From Acidobacteriaceae bacterium (GTDB lineage: Bacteria > Acidobacteriota > Terriglobia > Terriglobales > Acidobacteriaceae): a stretch of DNA of 32,160 bases. This document shows positions 12,753 through 29,052 of this stretch, piece after piece. The number at the start of each line of letters is the position of its first letter. Position 1 is the stretch's first letter. Location: contig JABFXN010000345.1 of NCBI GenBank assembly GCA_013361705.1, positions 1 through 32,160 on the forward strand. Direction: 5' to 3'. Below the pieces are notes generated by a model. It made no database searches and had not been told where the DNA came from. It saw only the letters and a program-made list of their open reading frames with translations. Position numbers and translations under genes: made by a program.

Positions 12753-12852
12753 ACATGTTTACCTGTAGGTGTCGTGTAGGGCTTCTGTATGCATGGTCGT
12801 TTTTCGCAATGAAAACGCCGCTGCACTCCCAGCAACAGGGCAAAACGCTCTA
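12750..12852. repeat. MITE-like element, family B, copy 1
   Basis: A diverged 103-bp copy in forward orientation. Its left end is TAGACATGTTTACCTGTAGG and its right end CAGGGCAAAACGCTCTA. The internal hairpin is retained as CGTTTTTCGCAATGAAAACG. The left TAG is the stop codon of the M1 peptidase and the final A is the first base of the amidase ATG, so the element fills the whole gap between the two genes. Confidence 0.8.
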
Positions 12853-15675: not shown

Positions 15676-16293
15676 ATGACCCAGCATCACGTTGGCCGGT
15701 TGGAGGTGATCACCGGCCCTATGTTCTCCGGAAAGAGCGAGGAACTGATCCGCCGTTTGAAGCGCGCCAAGATCGCGAAACAGCGAGTCGCCTGCTTCAA
15801 ACCTGACATTGATCTGCGGTATCACCGTACGGCAATCGCATCGCACTCTGAGCAGACGCATGACGCTGCGGTGGTTACGCCGACTTCGGAGCGCCTGAAG
15901 GCAACGCTCTTCGAGAACGATCACATTCATGAGGTCGATGTCATCGGCATCGACGAGGTGCAGTTCTTCGATGAGGCTGTGATTCCTCTGGTAATGGAGT
16001 TGGTGCATCTCGGCAAGCGGGTAATTCTGGGGGGTCTGGATACGACCTTTGCCAACGAGCCCTTTGGGCCGGTGCCAAATCTGATGGCGCTTGCCGATGA
16101 GGTGACGAAGCTGTCGGCCGTGTGCATGGTCTGCGGGAATCCTGCGATTCACACGCAGCGGCTGGGACAGAGCCAGGAGCTGGTGGTGGTGGGAGCGGCC
16201 GGGATGTATGAGGCTCGCTGCCGTGAGCACTTCCAGCCCTTTATCGACGAGAACCACAGCGAGCAGATGGAGCTTCCAGCGGTCGCCCCGTAG
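15676..16293 (+). CDS. tdk: thymidine kinase (type II, TK1-like)
   Basis: Thymidine kinase phosphorylates thymidine to dTMP with ATP in the pyrimidine salvage pathway (cytosol, homotetramer). The 205-residue protein has Walker A GPMFSGKS (14-21), Walker B/active site IGIDEVQFFD with Glu94 as general base, the phosphate/lasso region GGLDTTFANEPFGP (about 118-131), and a structural zinc site with Cys150-x2-Cys153 and Cys182-x2-His185. The lasso segment VVVGAAGMYEARC binds the thymine. The ATG at 15676 is preferred because the sequence before LEVITGPMFSGKSEEL is short in the family; the ribosome site is weak. Its stop TAG (16291-16293) coincides with the left end of a MITE-like element. Confidence 0.96.
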   Translation: MTQHHVGRLEVITGPMFSGKSEELIRRLKRAKIAKQRVACFKPDIDLRYHRTAIASHSEQTHDAAVVTPTSERLKATLFENDHIHEVDVIGIDEVQFFDEAVIPLVMELVHLGKRVILGGLDTTFANEPFGPVPNLMALADEVTKLSAVCMVCGNPAIHTQRLGQSQELVVVGAAGMYEARCREHFQPFIDENHSEQMELPAVAP

Positions 16294-16404
16294 AGCATTT
16301 CCCTGTAGGTGTAAAGTAGGGCTTTTGCATTTATGGGCGTTTTCCGCAATGAAAACGCCGCTCCACGCTCCTTCCGGAATACCCAGCAACAGGGAAATGC
16401 TCTA
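16291..16404. repeat. MITE-like element, family B, copy 2
   Basis: This is the best-preserved copy, 114 bp, forward orientation. Its ends form a perfect 16-bp inverted repeat: TAGAGCATTTCCCTGT on the left and ACAGGGAAATGCTCTA on the right. An internal perfect 9-bp hairpin is GGCGTTTTC-CGCAAT-GAAAACGCC. TAG at its left end is the tdk stop. No open frame of note and no transposase. Confidence 0.92.
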
Positions 16405-21293: not shown

Positions 21294-23027
21294 ATGGCTA
21301 CGATTCCTCCAATCGATCCTCGTTTTCAGCGTGAGCAGTGGCGTCAGCAGCAGCGTATTGCCCGCGATCAGGCAAAGGCGCAGCGGGATGCATGGCGGGC
21401 CCAGGCCCGGTTGCAGCGCGAACAGATGCGCTGGCAGATGCGGCAGTATCGCCGGGGCTCCATCGTTGGTCCTCTGCTTCTGGTGGCCATCGGCATTGTT
21501 TTTCTACTGATCCAGACGGGACGCATTGCCGCGAACCAGTTCTGGAACTGGTATGGACACTTCTGGCCGCTGGTGCTGATTGCAATCGGCGTGCTGATGC
21601 TGGCCGAGTGGGCTGTTGACCGCTACTTGCGGGCCGGCGATGCTCCGCCGGTGCGGCGCAGTGTAGGCGGCGTGGTCTTTCTGGTGATCCTTCTGGCGTT
21701 TGTCAGTCTCGCCTATACGGACTCGCGCCGCGTCAACGGATGGGTTGCCCGCAGCTTCCATGTCAGTAGTGATAATTGGGATGAGTTTACGGGTGACAAG
21801 CATGAGAGCGATTTGACGCCGGTGGAGCAGGCATTCCCCGAGGGTGGAACGCTTACCGTGGACAATCCGCGGGGCGACCTGACGATTGCCGGCACCAGTG
21901 ACGACGGCAAGCTGCACATTACCGGTCACAAAGAGGTTTACTCCGACAGCGACTCCGAGGCTGAGCGCAAGGCGAAGGCGATCGATCCCAATATTTCCGC
22001 CAGCGGCAACAGCGTGGTGGTGAATATCGCGGCAGAGAAGGGATGCAAGCTCGACCTCGATATTACGGTTCCGGCCACGGCCCTTGTGACCGCAACCGCG
22101 AATCATGGTGAGCTGCATGTCCGCAATCTAAAGGCTCCGGTGAATCTGACGGCCAATCATGGCAACGTCGATATCTCGGCCATTACCGGAACCTCGAACG
22201 TGCATATCAACAACAACGATTCGTCGCTGAATGCACACTCTCTGACGGGTTCGCTCAATATTGAAGGCAAGATCGACGAGCTTAGCATCTCCGATGTAAA
22301 TGGGCCGGTGCAGATGAATGGAGACTTCTTCGGTGCAGGGCGCATCGAGCGTGTCCAGGGGCCGTTTCAACTACGCACCAGCCGCACCGAGTTCCGCTTT
22401 GTCCGCCTGGACGGTCACGTCGATATCGACCCGGACCACGATATGACGGTGGAAGATGTGTTGGGACCCGTCGTTCTGAATACACGCAGCCGTGACATCG
22501 TCATGAACCGCGTTGCCGGTGACGTGACGGTAACCAACAAGAATGGCACCGTCGAGATCGGTGTTGCGCAACCGGTTGGCAACGTTACGGTGACCAATCG
22601 CAGCGGCGATGTGAAGCTTACGGTGCCGGAGAAGGCTGGCTACACGATCTCCGCGGAGACGAAGAACGGATCGACCGATACTGATCTTCCGCTGGACCGG
22701 AACTCGAGCGGCGATCGCCACATGCTCTCAGGCTCTATCAATGGCGGTGGCAAGCAGATCCGCATCCTCAACTCTGAGAGCGATATCTCCATCAATCGCA
22801 ATACACTGCCGCCGATTCCGGCTACACCGCCGGCGCCGCCGAAGATCACGATGGAAAAGCCCGGAGCGCCGCCTGCACCTCCGGATTCTCCCGCGGGGAT
22901 AGATATCAGAGACGCGAACGGCACGCGTGTCATCATTAACAAGAACGGTGTGATCGTGCGCGATGGCAAGGCAGCCTCGAAGCAGAAAAATAAAGATAAG
23001 AACAAAGACAACGACACCGATTTTTAG
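21294..23027 (+). CDS. membrane protein with DUF4097-like beta-helix domain
   Basis: A 577-residue protein. The N-terminal 50 residues are a Gln/Arg-rich amphipathic helix. Two LiaF-like transmembrane segments follow (LLLVAIGIVFLLIQTG and WPLVLIAIGVLMLAEWAV, about 58-110), then a third (VVFLVILLAFVSLAYT, about 127-142). The rest, about 180-500, is a repetitive beta-rich domain with the DUF4097 pattern: TLTVDNPRGDLTIAGTSDDG, ELHVRNLKAPVNLTANHGNVDI, VTVTNKNGTVEIG. The C-terminus is Pro-rich, then Lys/Asp-rich (KQKNKDKNKDNDTDF). The ribosome site AGGTAAG precedes the ATG at 21294. DUF4097 proteins often accompany ECF or LiaRS-type envelope-stress genes, so it is likely the effector or sensor end of this cassette. 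Its TAG stop is the first codon of a MITE-like element. Confidence 0.87.
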   Translation: MATIPPIDPRFQREQWRQQQRIARDQAKAQRDAWRAQARLQREQMRWQMRQYRRGSIVGPLLLVAIGIVFLLIQTGRIAANQFWNWYGHFWPLVLIAIGVLMLAEWAVDRYLRAGDAPPVRRSVGGVVFLVILLAFVSLAYTDSRRVNGWVARSFHVSSDNWDEFTGDKHESDLTPVEQAFPEGGTLTVDNPRGDLTIAGTSDDGKLHITGHKEVYSDSDSEAERKAKAIDPNISASGNSVVVNIAAEKGCKLDLDITVPATALVTATANHGELHVRNLKAPVNLTANHGNVDISAITGTSNVHINNNDSSLNAHSLTGSLNIEGKIDELSISDVNGPVQMNGDFFGAGRIERVQGPFQLRTSRTEFRFVRLDGHVDIDPDHDMTVEDVLGPVVLNTRSRDIVMNRVAGDVTVTNKNGTVEIGVAQPVGNVTVTNRSGDVKLTVPEKAGYTISAETKNGSTDTDLPLDRNSSGDRHMLSGSINGGGKQIRILNSESDISINRNTLPPIPATPPAPPKITMEKPGAPPAPPDSPAGIDIRDANGTRVIINKNGVIVRDGKAASKQKNKDKNKDNDTDF

Positions 23028-23140
23028 AGCATTTTCCCTGTTGATGGGTAGCCCGGAAGAGGAGTGCAGCGGCGTTTTCATTGCGGAAAACGCCCATAGA
23101 TGCGGAAGCCCTACACTATACCGACAGGGAAAATACTCCA
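23025..23140. repeat. MITE-like element, family B, copy 3
   Basis: A 116-bp copy in reverse orientation relative to 16291-16404. Left end TAGAGCATTTTCCCTGTTG, right end GACAGGGAAAATACTCCA, internal GGCGTTTTC-ATTGCG-GAAAACGCC. The left TAG is the stop of the DUF4097-like gene, and the right end lies 19 bp before the hydrolase start at 23160. Confidence 0.9.
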
Positions 23141-26538: not shown

Positions 26539-26654
26539 TAGAGCATTTCTCCTGCAGGTGTAGTGTAGGGCTTCCGTATTTATGGGCGTTTTCCGCAATG
26601 AAAACGCCGCTGTACTCCCCTTCTGGGCTACACATCAACAGGAGAAATGCTCTA
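26539..26654. repeat. MITE-like element, family B, copy 5
   Basis: A complete 116-bp copy in forward orientation with ends TAGAGCATTTCTCCTG and CAGGAGAAATGCTCTA (16-bp perfect inverted repeat, carrying a compensating C/G change against copy 2). The internal hairpin GGCGTTTTC / GAAAACGCC is intact. It lies between the glycosylase and second M1 peptidase genes. Confidence 0.92.
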
Positions 26655-26687
26655 GAGCATTTCTCCTGCAGGTGTAGTGTAGGGGCT
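26653..26687. repeat. truncated tandem copy of the family B left end
   Basis: The first 32 bases of copy 5 (TAGAGCATTTCTCCTGCAGG onward) are repeated immediately after its right end, sharing the TA, and then break off at GGGGCTCCC. The remaining stretch to 26898 holds no other recognised feature except the ribosome site of the following gene. Confidence 0.8.
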
Positions 26688-26898
26688 CCCAAACCGGTTG
26701 CTAGTTGGTGTGAAACACAGAGGAGGAACGGTTTCTCTGCTAAGGGTGATCCATCATGCTGCTGCGTCCTTTTCGGCGTTCCGGACGTCTTCTCATCACG
26801 TGCAAAAGAAGGTTCATCGGCTCCCCGATCCCCGCGGGAAAAACTCGCGCGCCTTCGTCTGCCCAATCCGCACCGCCACCTCTGATTCAGGAGATTTC

Positions 26899-29052
26899 AT
26901 GACGCACGTGTGTGCTATGCGCCGCGCCCTTAGAGCATTTTCCCTGTTGCTGGGTATCCCGAAGAGGGAGTGCAGCGGCGTTTTCATCGCGGAAAGCGCC
27001 CATAAATACGGAAGCCCTAATCGACACCTACAGCGAAAATGCTCCCTCGTCGCCACGTTTCTTGTTTCCGCTGCAGTGATGGCCGCTCAGCCGCCCCAGG
27101 GGCAGGGCCGCCGTCCGCAGATTCCGGATACCGGCGGACGTTCCGCCACCTACGATCCGTTGAAGACCTTTGCGCCTTATGCCATGCCGCAGCCGGTTAC
27201 GAGCTATCGTGGCGCCGATGGCGCACCGACCCCGGCGTACTGGCAGAACTCGGCTGACTATGAAATGCACGCGACCATCGATCCCGGGACGAAGACGCTC
27301 TCGAATATCGAGACCATCACCTATACCAACAACAGTCCGGTGGCGCTCAACAGCCTATGGCTTCAGGTAGAGCAGAACACGTATCGTGCCGATGCGCGTT
27401 CGCGTGCCTTCTCCGGCGGTAGCCGGCAGCGGCCGGAAAGTATCAACACTGACGGCACCGACTTCGAGTCGATGGAGCTGCTCCCTACGGCGAAGGGCGC
27501 CAAGGCGGTAAAGGCTGAGTATGTTATCAGCGACACCAGGGCACGGATCGATCTGCCTACACCGCTGCCGCATGGAAGCAGCATCAAGATCCTGATCAAG
27601 TACCACTACACAGTGCCGGGCATCTGGGGTGGACGCACCTCGGTCGACGAAGTGAAGGACGGGCCGATCTACGACATCGCGCAGTGGTATCCGCGTATGG
27701 CTGTCTATGACGACGTTCATGGCTGGGACACGCAGCCGTTCCTCGGCAATGAGTTCTATACCGAGTTCGGCAATTACGACTTCTACGTCACCGTCCCCTC
27801 GAACTATCTGGTCGCCGGGACCGGTTATCTGGTGAACGGCGCGGAGGTGCTCACCAAGACGCAACAGGATCGCCTGAAGCAGGCTGCAACAAGCGACAAG
27901 ACGATCTTCATCCGCACACAGGTTGAGGTGCACGATCCAGCCAGCCGGCCGAAGAAGGAAGGCACGCTCACCTGGCACTATCACATGGACCACACCCGTG
28001 ATGCTGTCTTCTCTGCATCGCCGTCATTCATCTGGGATGCCGCAAAGATCAATCTTCCCGGTGGGAAAACCTCGCTGGCGGAGAGCTTTTATCCACCGGA
28101 GGCTGCTGGTGACGATGGATGGGGCCGCTGCACCGAGTATCTGAAGGACGCAGTCGAGCATTTCTCGCGGGATTGGTATGTCTATCCCTATCCCGCAGGC
28201 ATCAACGTTGCCGGTTTCTCTTCCGGCATGGAATATCCCGGTCTGGTCTTTGACGGGATCCGGTCGAAGAGCAAGGGCCTCTTTGTCGTTACGGCACACG
28301 AGATCGGTCATACCTGGTTCCCGATGGTGGTGCAGTCCAACGAGCGCCGCGATGCCTGGATGGATGAGGGCTTCAACACCTTCATCGATATCTATGAGTC
28401 TGACCAGTTCAACCATGGCGTCTGGGGTCCGAAGCGCGATGGCGAGTATGCTCCCGGCGGCGGATATCCAGCAGACGAGATCGCCAAGGTCAATGCTGAT
28501 CCAGAGGCTCCGCCCATCCTCATGCGCTCTGACGCCATCCGCGAGAAGTATCGCCATCCCATCACCTACTTCAAGTCGGCAGAGGGGCTGTATCTGTTGC
28601 GCGAAGAGATTCTGGGGCACGAGGTCTTCGACCGCGCCTTCCGCAAGTACATCAACGACTGGGCGTTCAAGCATCCCACGCCGTCAGACTTCTTCCGCGA
28701 GATGGAGAGTGAGGGCGGAGAAGACCTCAGCTACTTCTGGCGGGGATGGTATGAGAACAACTGGACGATGGATATGGCTGCGAAAGATCTGAAGTACAAC
28801 GATCTGGCTGATCCTTCTAAAGGGGCACATGTCACCATCGAGCAGAACGGTCAGCTGGTTCTGCCGGCGTGGGTGCAGGTGAAGTACGACGACGGGACGG
28901 ACCTGAAGATCAAGCTGCCGGCGGAGACGTGGATGCAGAAAGCTACATACAACATGCCTCTGCCAACGACGAAGAAGATCGCGGAAGTCACGATCGATCC
29001 GGAACATCGCATCCCTGATGGAGACCGTGCGAATAATACGGCGAAGCCGTAG
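26899..29052 (+). CDS. exported M1-family zinc metallopeptidase with in-frame repeat insertion
   Basis: A 717-residue gluzincin peptidase. The catalytic site is His467-Glu468-I-G-His471 and Glu490 in MDEGF, exactly 19 residues after the second His. A large N-terminal beta domain (about 100-400) precedes it, and a helical/beta C-terminus follows (NNWTMDMAAKDLKYNDLADP, then a strand-rich end). The ATG at 26899 has AGGAG 5 nt upstream. The N-terminus is abnormal: codons 12-49 are a MITE-like element read in frame (SGVFIAESAHKYGSP region), splitting the signal peptide between MRRAL and VATFLVSAAVMAAQ. Removing 114 bp restores a perfect signal peptide. The present n-region is nearly 50 residues long, so export may be altered. 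A frame open further upstream lacks a ribosome site. A terminator follows the stop. Confidence 0.9.
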   Translation: MTHVCAMRRALRAFSLLLGIPKRECSGVFIAESAHKYGSPNRHLQRKCSLVATFLVSAAVMAAQPPQGQGRRPQIPDTGGRSATYDPLKTFAPYAMPQPVTSYRGADGAPTPAYWQNSADYEMHATIDPGTKTLSNIETITYTNNSPVALNSLWLQVEQNTYRADARSRAFSGGSRQRPESINTDGTDFESMELLPTAKGAKAVKAEYVISDTRARIDLPTPLPHGSSIKILIKYHYTVPGIWGGRTSVDEVKDGPIYDIAQWYPRMAVYDDVHGWDTQPFLGNEFYTEFGNYDFYVTVPSNYLVAGTGYLVNGAEVLTKTQQDRLKQAATSDKTIFIRTQVEVHDPASRPKKEGTLTWHYHMDHTRDAVFSASPSFIWDAAKINLPGGKTSLAESFYPPEAAGDDGWGRCTEYLKDAVEHFSRDWYVYPYPAGINVAGFSSGMEYPGLVFDGIRSKSKGLFVVTAHEIGHTWFPMVVQSNERRDAWMDEGFNTFIDIYESDQFNHGVWGPKRDGEYAPGGGYPADEIAKVNADPEAPPILMRSDAIREKYRHPITYFKSAEGLYLLREEILGHEVFDRAFRKYINDWAFKHPTPSDFFREMESEGGEDLSYFWRGWYENNWTMDMAAKDLKYNDLADPSKGAHVTIEQNGQLVLPAWVQVKYDDGTDLKIKLPAETWMQKATYNMPLPTTKKIAEVTIDPEHRIPDGDRANNTAKP
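26931..27046. repeat. MITE-like element, family B, copy 6, within a coding sequence
   Basis: A 116-bp reverse-orientation copy with ends TAGAGCATTTTCCCTGTTG and CAGCGAAAATGCTCCC, the last bases changed from CTA. Internal GGCGTTTTC-ATCGCG-GAAAGCGCC. It is open in the reading frame of the peptidase and contributes 38 net codons. Confidence 0.9.

Follow-up and report, generated by a model that had tools for sequence, protein, structure and literature searches.

How does an exported enzyme remain readable with a transposable element inside its coding sequence? The question is raised by a stretch of 32,160 nucleotides (hereafter, the window) that makes up the whole of contig C49 of draft genome G000 (414 contigs), the source of which is a Terriglobus-type acidobacterium; G000 falls in one genus with genomes G009 and G012. 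On its forward strand the window carries a gene of 717 codons for an exported family M1 peptidase (positions 26899–29052, element included; Peptidase_M1, E 8.6e-15), and a HEIGH motif within the domain match (28297–28311) presumably has a zinc-binding role. An earlier note had placed a mobile repeat, in frame, in the signal-peptide n-region of this gene. That placement is borne out here, as the reading frame is open through the repeat and orthologues without it exist.

A repeat in frame between the native start and the hydrophobic core

The gene opens with MTHVCAMRRA and the first two bases of the codon after it (26899–26930), native n-region sequence that is kept in close orthologues. The earlier note had the gene start reading MRRAL at 26899; this needs correction, since the ATG at 26899 gives MTHVCAMRRAL and MRRAL starts at 26917. 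Its description of a good ribosome site at that ATG was sound, with a Shine-Dalgarno-like GGAG (26890–26893) located five bases 5' of the start and the same bases found in the orthologues of G013 and G002. Downstream of the native codons lie a left-hand TA, the target site (26931–26932), and a 112-bp copy of the repeat that is open in its forward frame 1 and departs from the family consensus at 10 positions in 112 (26933–27044), followed by CC in place of the usual right-hand TA of the family (27045–27046). The hydrophobic core of the signal peptide (LVATFLVSAAVMA, 27046–27084, identified by hydropathy and from orthologues) is followed by AQ; all these features are on the forward strand. The 112-bp element and 2 bp add up to 38 codons, in frame between the conserved start and the core, and the protein reads MTHVCAMRRA, then 38 element residues, then SLVATFLVSAAVMAAQPPQ and onwards.

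From hydropathy, the core spans residues 48–63 in G000 and 9–25 in G013, corresponding to n-regions of about 50 and 12 residues, respectively, in line with the nearly 50 residues proposed previously. Lysines and arginines in the n-region number nine in G000 versus two in G013, and aspartates and glutamates two versus none. Judged by hydropathy and charge, the protein has the features of a Sec signal peptide, namely a basic n-region, a hydrophobic core and small residues before the cleavage site. The element contributes a second, weaker hydrophobic stretch (ALRAFSLLLGIP, residues 10–21; windowed hydropathy mean at most 2.0, versus 2.4 for the core), which might act as a competing signal core. 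Translation from a start downstream of the element had also been considered; the last 31 codons before the core contain no ATG, GTG, TTG or CTG in frame, so such a start cannot keep the signal peptide.

The empty site and the age of the insertion

The N-termini of 16 M1 loci of the genus were read: the gene of the window, a fragment from G011 that lacks an N-terminus, and 14 others. The element is absent from all 14 other orthologues, as judged by eye from the translations (three, at ~57% identity, are too diverged for their start to be aligned), and the 38 residues are accordingly no common property of these peptidases. Among the genomes read, the M1 insertion is found only in G000. Start and core are conserved on both sides of the empty site in the close orthologues. 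The closest of these, from G013 (98% identical), reads MTHVCAMRRAFLVATFLVSAAMMAAQ, with the start, the ribosome site and the hydrophobic core unchanged. The difference between the two genomes is precise: G013 lacks exactly 114 bp and joins GCGCCGCGCCTTTC to TCGTCGCC with nothing between, which is the intact signal peptide that had been predicted for removal of 114 bp. In-frame TAA was noted inside the matched range of the M1 orthologue of G007 (L013), and may simply be the end of that gene.

The empty site reads TTTATCG, containing a TA, in G002 and TTTCTCG in G013. The TA duplication that had been presumed to bracket the insert is seen in part, the left TA being present and the right dinucleotide being CC. 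This would follow from two changes in the right TA, or from a target that had already ceased to be TA.

Comparison with G013 over 634 codons gives a pS of 0.20, a pN of 0.010 and a pN/pS of 0.049; the rest of the M1 gene is under strong constraint. At 10/112, the M1 copy has diverged from its consensus about as far as a single lineage would have done neutrally after separating from G013 (0.20 halved), so the fusion could be nearly as old as the species; copies may already differ before insertion.

A family of short elements with TA target sites

A first look returned 291 candidate copies in G000, 327 in G002, 424 in G009 and 269 in G013. The repeat is more than a chance resemblance, because there are 291 candidates in G000 and all 40 of those scored were significant. 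In 57 other genomes, ranging from the same genus to the same class, only two had a match, each a single short one (34 bp and 23 bp). The length of ~112 bp, the high copy number and the lack of a coding gene of its own mark the repeat as a MITE. With both TA dinucleotides the consensus is 116 bp; its ends are inverted, and it begins TAGAGCATTTTCCCTGT and ends ACAGGGAAAATGCTCTA. TA/TA is the commonest pair of flanks in 164 complete copies (94, with TA/CA in 22 and TA/CC in three), and 90 of the 164 amount to exactly 114 bp with one TA. Reading of the alignments between G002 and G009 gave a clean TA duplication at 8 of 16 sites, with one TA in the empty and two in the filled allele; at the remaining eight the ends have diverged or shifted. 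The 115 TA/TA copies show a preference for a pyrimidine before the TA and nCG after it. The two ends are asymmetric, in that the right-hand TA is replaced by CA in 27 of the 164 copies and the mirror-image left-hand TG occurs in six.

Three of the six frames of the consensus are free of stops (forward frames 1 and 2 and reverse frame 2), and insertion with the TA at codon positions 1–2 always creates a TAG. The DNA fold of the element is not unusual (z -0.80), the RNA fold of positions 26880–27075 has a z of -2.37, and an Rfam scan of the window gave no match. Other copies are present in the window. On the reverse strand, a second copy upstream of the M1 gene (26540–26654), common to G013, adjoins a fragment of a third (26653–26689, family D3), and this abutting arrangement (26539–26689) lies ~210 bp upstream of the M1 start. 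A forward-strand copy at 23025–23139, common to G013 and G009, provides with its first bases the TAG stop of the open reading frame at 21294–23027, and two further copies are on the reverse strand, one at 16292–16404 that is common to G009 and a diverged one at 12758–12851.

MITE ends were sought around a transposase at 24 transposase loci of the DDE_3 and DDE_Tnp_1 families, and none were found; an ordinary MITE copy was near two of the 24. An inverted pair of ends 0.4–3.5 kb apart was entertained as an autonomous element, and the sole such pair in the loci examined turned out to be two MITEs. Elements of the IS630/Tc1-mariner type have a TA target as a family trait, and TA duplication is likewise seen in the MITE family. 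The sole DDE_3 transposase found in G000 (L452, 1371–2366) belongs to a TA-flanked element whose ends begin GAGCA like those of the MITE, although the agreement covers these first five bases only.

The element recurs in genes for exported proteins

In total, 221 non-redundant copies with their flanks, from the four genomes G000, G002, G009 and G013, were screened for open frames leading into coding sequence. Twelve genes for exported proteins start upstream of the element and encode a hydrophobic core downstream of it (the 11 besides M1 judged by eye). In a thirteenth, sialidase-like gene (label by inspection; G000 and G013), the element lies just after the cleavage site. Element-free orthologues were identified for 11 of the 12 n-region genes, the sensor described below being the one without, and for the thirteenth gene.

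The 13 genes use exactly the three open frames and no other. Forward frame 1 is read in the M1 peptidase (G000), an Amidase_3 protein (all four genomes), a DUF885 protein (G000), an OMP-barrel receptor (G009) and a VWFA-like protein (G002; labelled by inspection, with no Pfam match in the piece scanned). Forward frame 2 is read in an HlyD lipoprotein (all four genomes), a CsgG-like protein (G002, G009 and G013; labelled by inspection, no Pfam match) and a GDPD protein (G002). Reverse frame 2 is read in a second OMP-barrel receptor (G000, G009 and G013), a glycosidase-like protein (all four genomes; weak Pfam match below the cut-off), a sensor with Reg_prop and GGDEF domains (G002 and G013, at sites ~20 bp apart) and an unnamed protein, X421 (G000, G002 and G013). 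The domain assignments come from a scan of 10 proteins or pieces. Coding sequence downstream of an open element was present in 40 + 10 candidate rows, and those outside the 13 genes were dropped by eye for a plausible start downstream of the element or a spurious-looking frame; examples with a downstream start are a purine nucleoside phosphorylase, a ribonuclease-like protein and an AraC-like regulator (names by inspection). The 28 of 221 copies that fall in the 13 genes do not represent a frequency, as the copies were partly gathered via long open frames; the sole stretch chosen without regard to elements is 1.2 Mb of G002.

Several of these loci have features of their own. The target TA of the amidase is part of the TAA stop of an overlapping upstream gene in G017; the element gives that upstream gene a TAG stop, while the amidase reads through in another frame. 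In the sensor gene (L372 and L373), the elements of G002 and G013 are in the same n-region, orientation and frame, arising from two insertions or a rearrangement, and the G002 copy has TG on both sides. Element-free alleles are found for the CsgG-like protein in G000 (L430) and for an OMP receptor in G002 (L483), while relatives that are seemingly more distant by M1 divergence are filled, which suggests precise loss or gene exchange.

No sampled copy is in frame within a coding domain

A codon-usage score that required 50 or more coding codons in the same frame on either side of the element placed not one of the 221 copies in frame within a coding domain. For comparison, 72% of the preference-weighted TA sites in the 1.2 Mb of G002 are inside genes, by a preference model built from 98 target sites and a home-made gene caller applied to that stretch. 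A stop codon is located at the element edge after at least 60 coding codons in 65 of the 221 copies, 20 of them among the 56 copies of the G002 stretch, versus 14.5% of the weight expected among tolerated sites. At the one stop-supplying site compared, a TAA occupies this position in the element-free genome. In many copies, as in that at 23025 of the window, the first bases TAG are the stop of the preceding gene.

Open n-region sites account for 1.8% of the model weight among tolerated sites. Three of the 56 copies in the G002 stretch are in n-regions (amidase, HlyD lipoprotein and sensor), versus about one expected (Poisson p ~0.08). We claim no enrichment and do not adopt targeting of n-regions; with three copies where about one is expected, tolerance therefore suffices as an explanation.

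Shared copies keep the frame and are little constrained

Eighteen shared sites were found, six of them in the 13 genes (amidase, HlyD, glycosidase-like, X421, CsgG-like and sialidase-like). Each of these six is one site filled in two to four species, and the frame used is open in every copy. The only net differences in length are +6 (G000) and -3 (G013), both in the amidase; the glycosidase-like copies have compensating 2-bp gaps in the alignment. The second OMP receptor provides a seventh shared case, outside the count of 18, that is filled in three species with no gap. A net frame-changing length was seen in none of the six coding groups versus four of the 12 other shared sites, a contrast that is not significant. 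Pooled pN/pS amounts to 0.56 in the element versus 0.14 in 120 downstream codons, with X421 alone at 2.0. The element thus stays open under little constraint.

A probably tolerated extension of the signal peptide

In the most probable reading, a MITE in an n-region keeps the frame by its 114 bp and is tolerated as the extra peptide should leave with the signal peptide. A non-autonomous element inserted in the n-region and added 114 bp, composed of the element and the duplicated dinucleotide. The ribosome would start at the native ATG at 26899, read 38 extra residues and continue into the unchanged core and mature enzyme, giving a preprotein with an n-region of ~50 residues instead of 12 that is rich in basic residues. 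Sec should accept a long basic n-region, and signal peptidase (the lipoprotein peptidase in the case of HlyD) would then remove core and insert together, leaving the mature enzyme unchanged. Because cleavage would discard the element-coded peptide, n-regions are predicted to be one of few near-neutral sites in a gene, and because insertion would be nearly neutral there, the family could survive in about a dozen n-regions and one mature-protein start and, among the copies sampled, not in domains. Removal of the extra peptide, presumably with the signal peptide, would explain how a selfish element resides inside genes at almost no cost.

It is possible to go further and suppose that the 38 residues are a mobile n-region module, selected and tuned to be more basic, that alters when, or by which route, many secreted proteins are exported at once, and that n-regions are a general, overlooked landing zone for in-frame bacterial transposons; this we consider unlikely.

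Alternatively, translation may begin inside the element, which would supply a new start and a shorter n-region. Suitable codons are present, with CTG, TTG and CTG 13–19 bases into the M1 element and an in-frame ATG (MKTP..) 57–58 bases into the opposite-orientation copies; outside M1, a clear ribosome site is missing from several of the native starts. However, no Shine-Dalgarno-like sequence was seen by eye before the internal codons, whereas M1 and the two OMP receptors have GGAG, GGAGG and GGAGA ahead of their native starts, and close orthologues retain the start region that precedes the element in M1, all of which makes an internal start quite improbable. In opposite-orientation copies such as L439 and L477, a change of the left TA to TG creates a second ATG at the junction.

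Whether the peptide has instead been co-opted to delay or steer export, serving as a functional, lengthened n-region in the manner of autotransporter signal sequences, can be judged from its charge and its evolution. The M1 copy has a net charge of +5, a value attained in 8% of the 137 non-coding copies that lack a stop in that frame, and the corresponding ranks are 6% for the glycosidase-like protein and X421 and 10% for GDPD. The OMP receptors, in contrast, rank at 91% and 93%, the amidase at 75%, DUF885 at 56% and the sensor at 49%; the charge shift over the 12 n-region genes is weak (first-listed copy of each, p ~0.08), and the element codons evolve nearly freely. Charge and pN/pS thus gave weak hints of selection on the element peptide; co-option is very unlikely on these figures, and we do not claim it.

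It is more doubtful still that the insertion harms export and that the M1 gene is drifting towards inactivation. Such drift would fit an insertion found in one genome among those read and an n-region grown from 12 to 50 residues, but the gene runs for 717 codons without a stop and is strongly constrained, and insertions in other genes are common to up to four species. An assembly artefact, in which a high-copy repeat led to misjoined flanks in the draft (414 contigs), is scarcely credible given that both flanks come from one gene and follow each other correctly, and that the same architecture occurs in eight other genes of G002, a one-contig genome.

With tolerance of the extended n-region as the preferred reading, two consequences follow for work on secretion and annotation. 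The dozen fusions, 11 with element-free orthologues, constitute a natural experiment on the limits of n-region length, and programs for gene calling or signal-peptide prediction may assign wrong starts to genes of this kind.

Comparison with known in-frame repeats

Among the matches listed from titles and abstract openings of the open-licence literature, there was no report of this MITE family or of a set of insertions in n-regions. Repeats that lie in frame have been described in Rickettsia and in enterobacteria, according to the portions of the reports cited (PMC2759123, PMC2229807, PMC10969869). The Rickettsia palindromic elements (RPE) are described there as repeats of ~100–150 bp that sit in protein-coding genes without disturbing the frame and are translated together with them (PMC10969869, PMC2229807). 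The earlier note had drawn this likeness, and it extends to in-frame insertion of a repeat in protein genes, evident here from the frame and the empty sites; insertion within domains, in contrast, is not shared. The MITE family, which is set beside RPE by description, further differs in its TA duplications and in having its in-frame copies in n-regions, with 0 of 221 inside coding domains. In RPE the extra peptide stays in the protein, whereas here it is presumably removed with the signal peptide.

A MITE that forms part of a signal peptide has been described for YPO1552 of Y. pestis (PMC2759123, PMC2229807, PMC10969869). In these open-reading-frame fusions of the enterobacterial RU-1/RU-2 repeats, as far as the cited portions describe them, the repeat itself helps to form the signal sequence and one locus is highlighted. 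In the present family, by contrast, 12 genes, 11 of them with element-free orthologues, retain the native core and have a longer n-region. Autotransporters provide known cases of long signal sequences that continue to work with Sec, as outlined in the cited portion of PMC2805444; those belong to one protein class, whereas the extension seen here is a transposable element in varied proteins. Set against these systems, the insertion in the M1 peptidase gene is an instance of a real, recurrent variant of in-frame MITE insertion.
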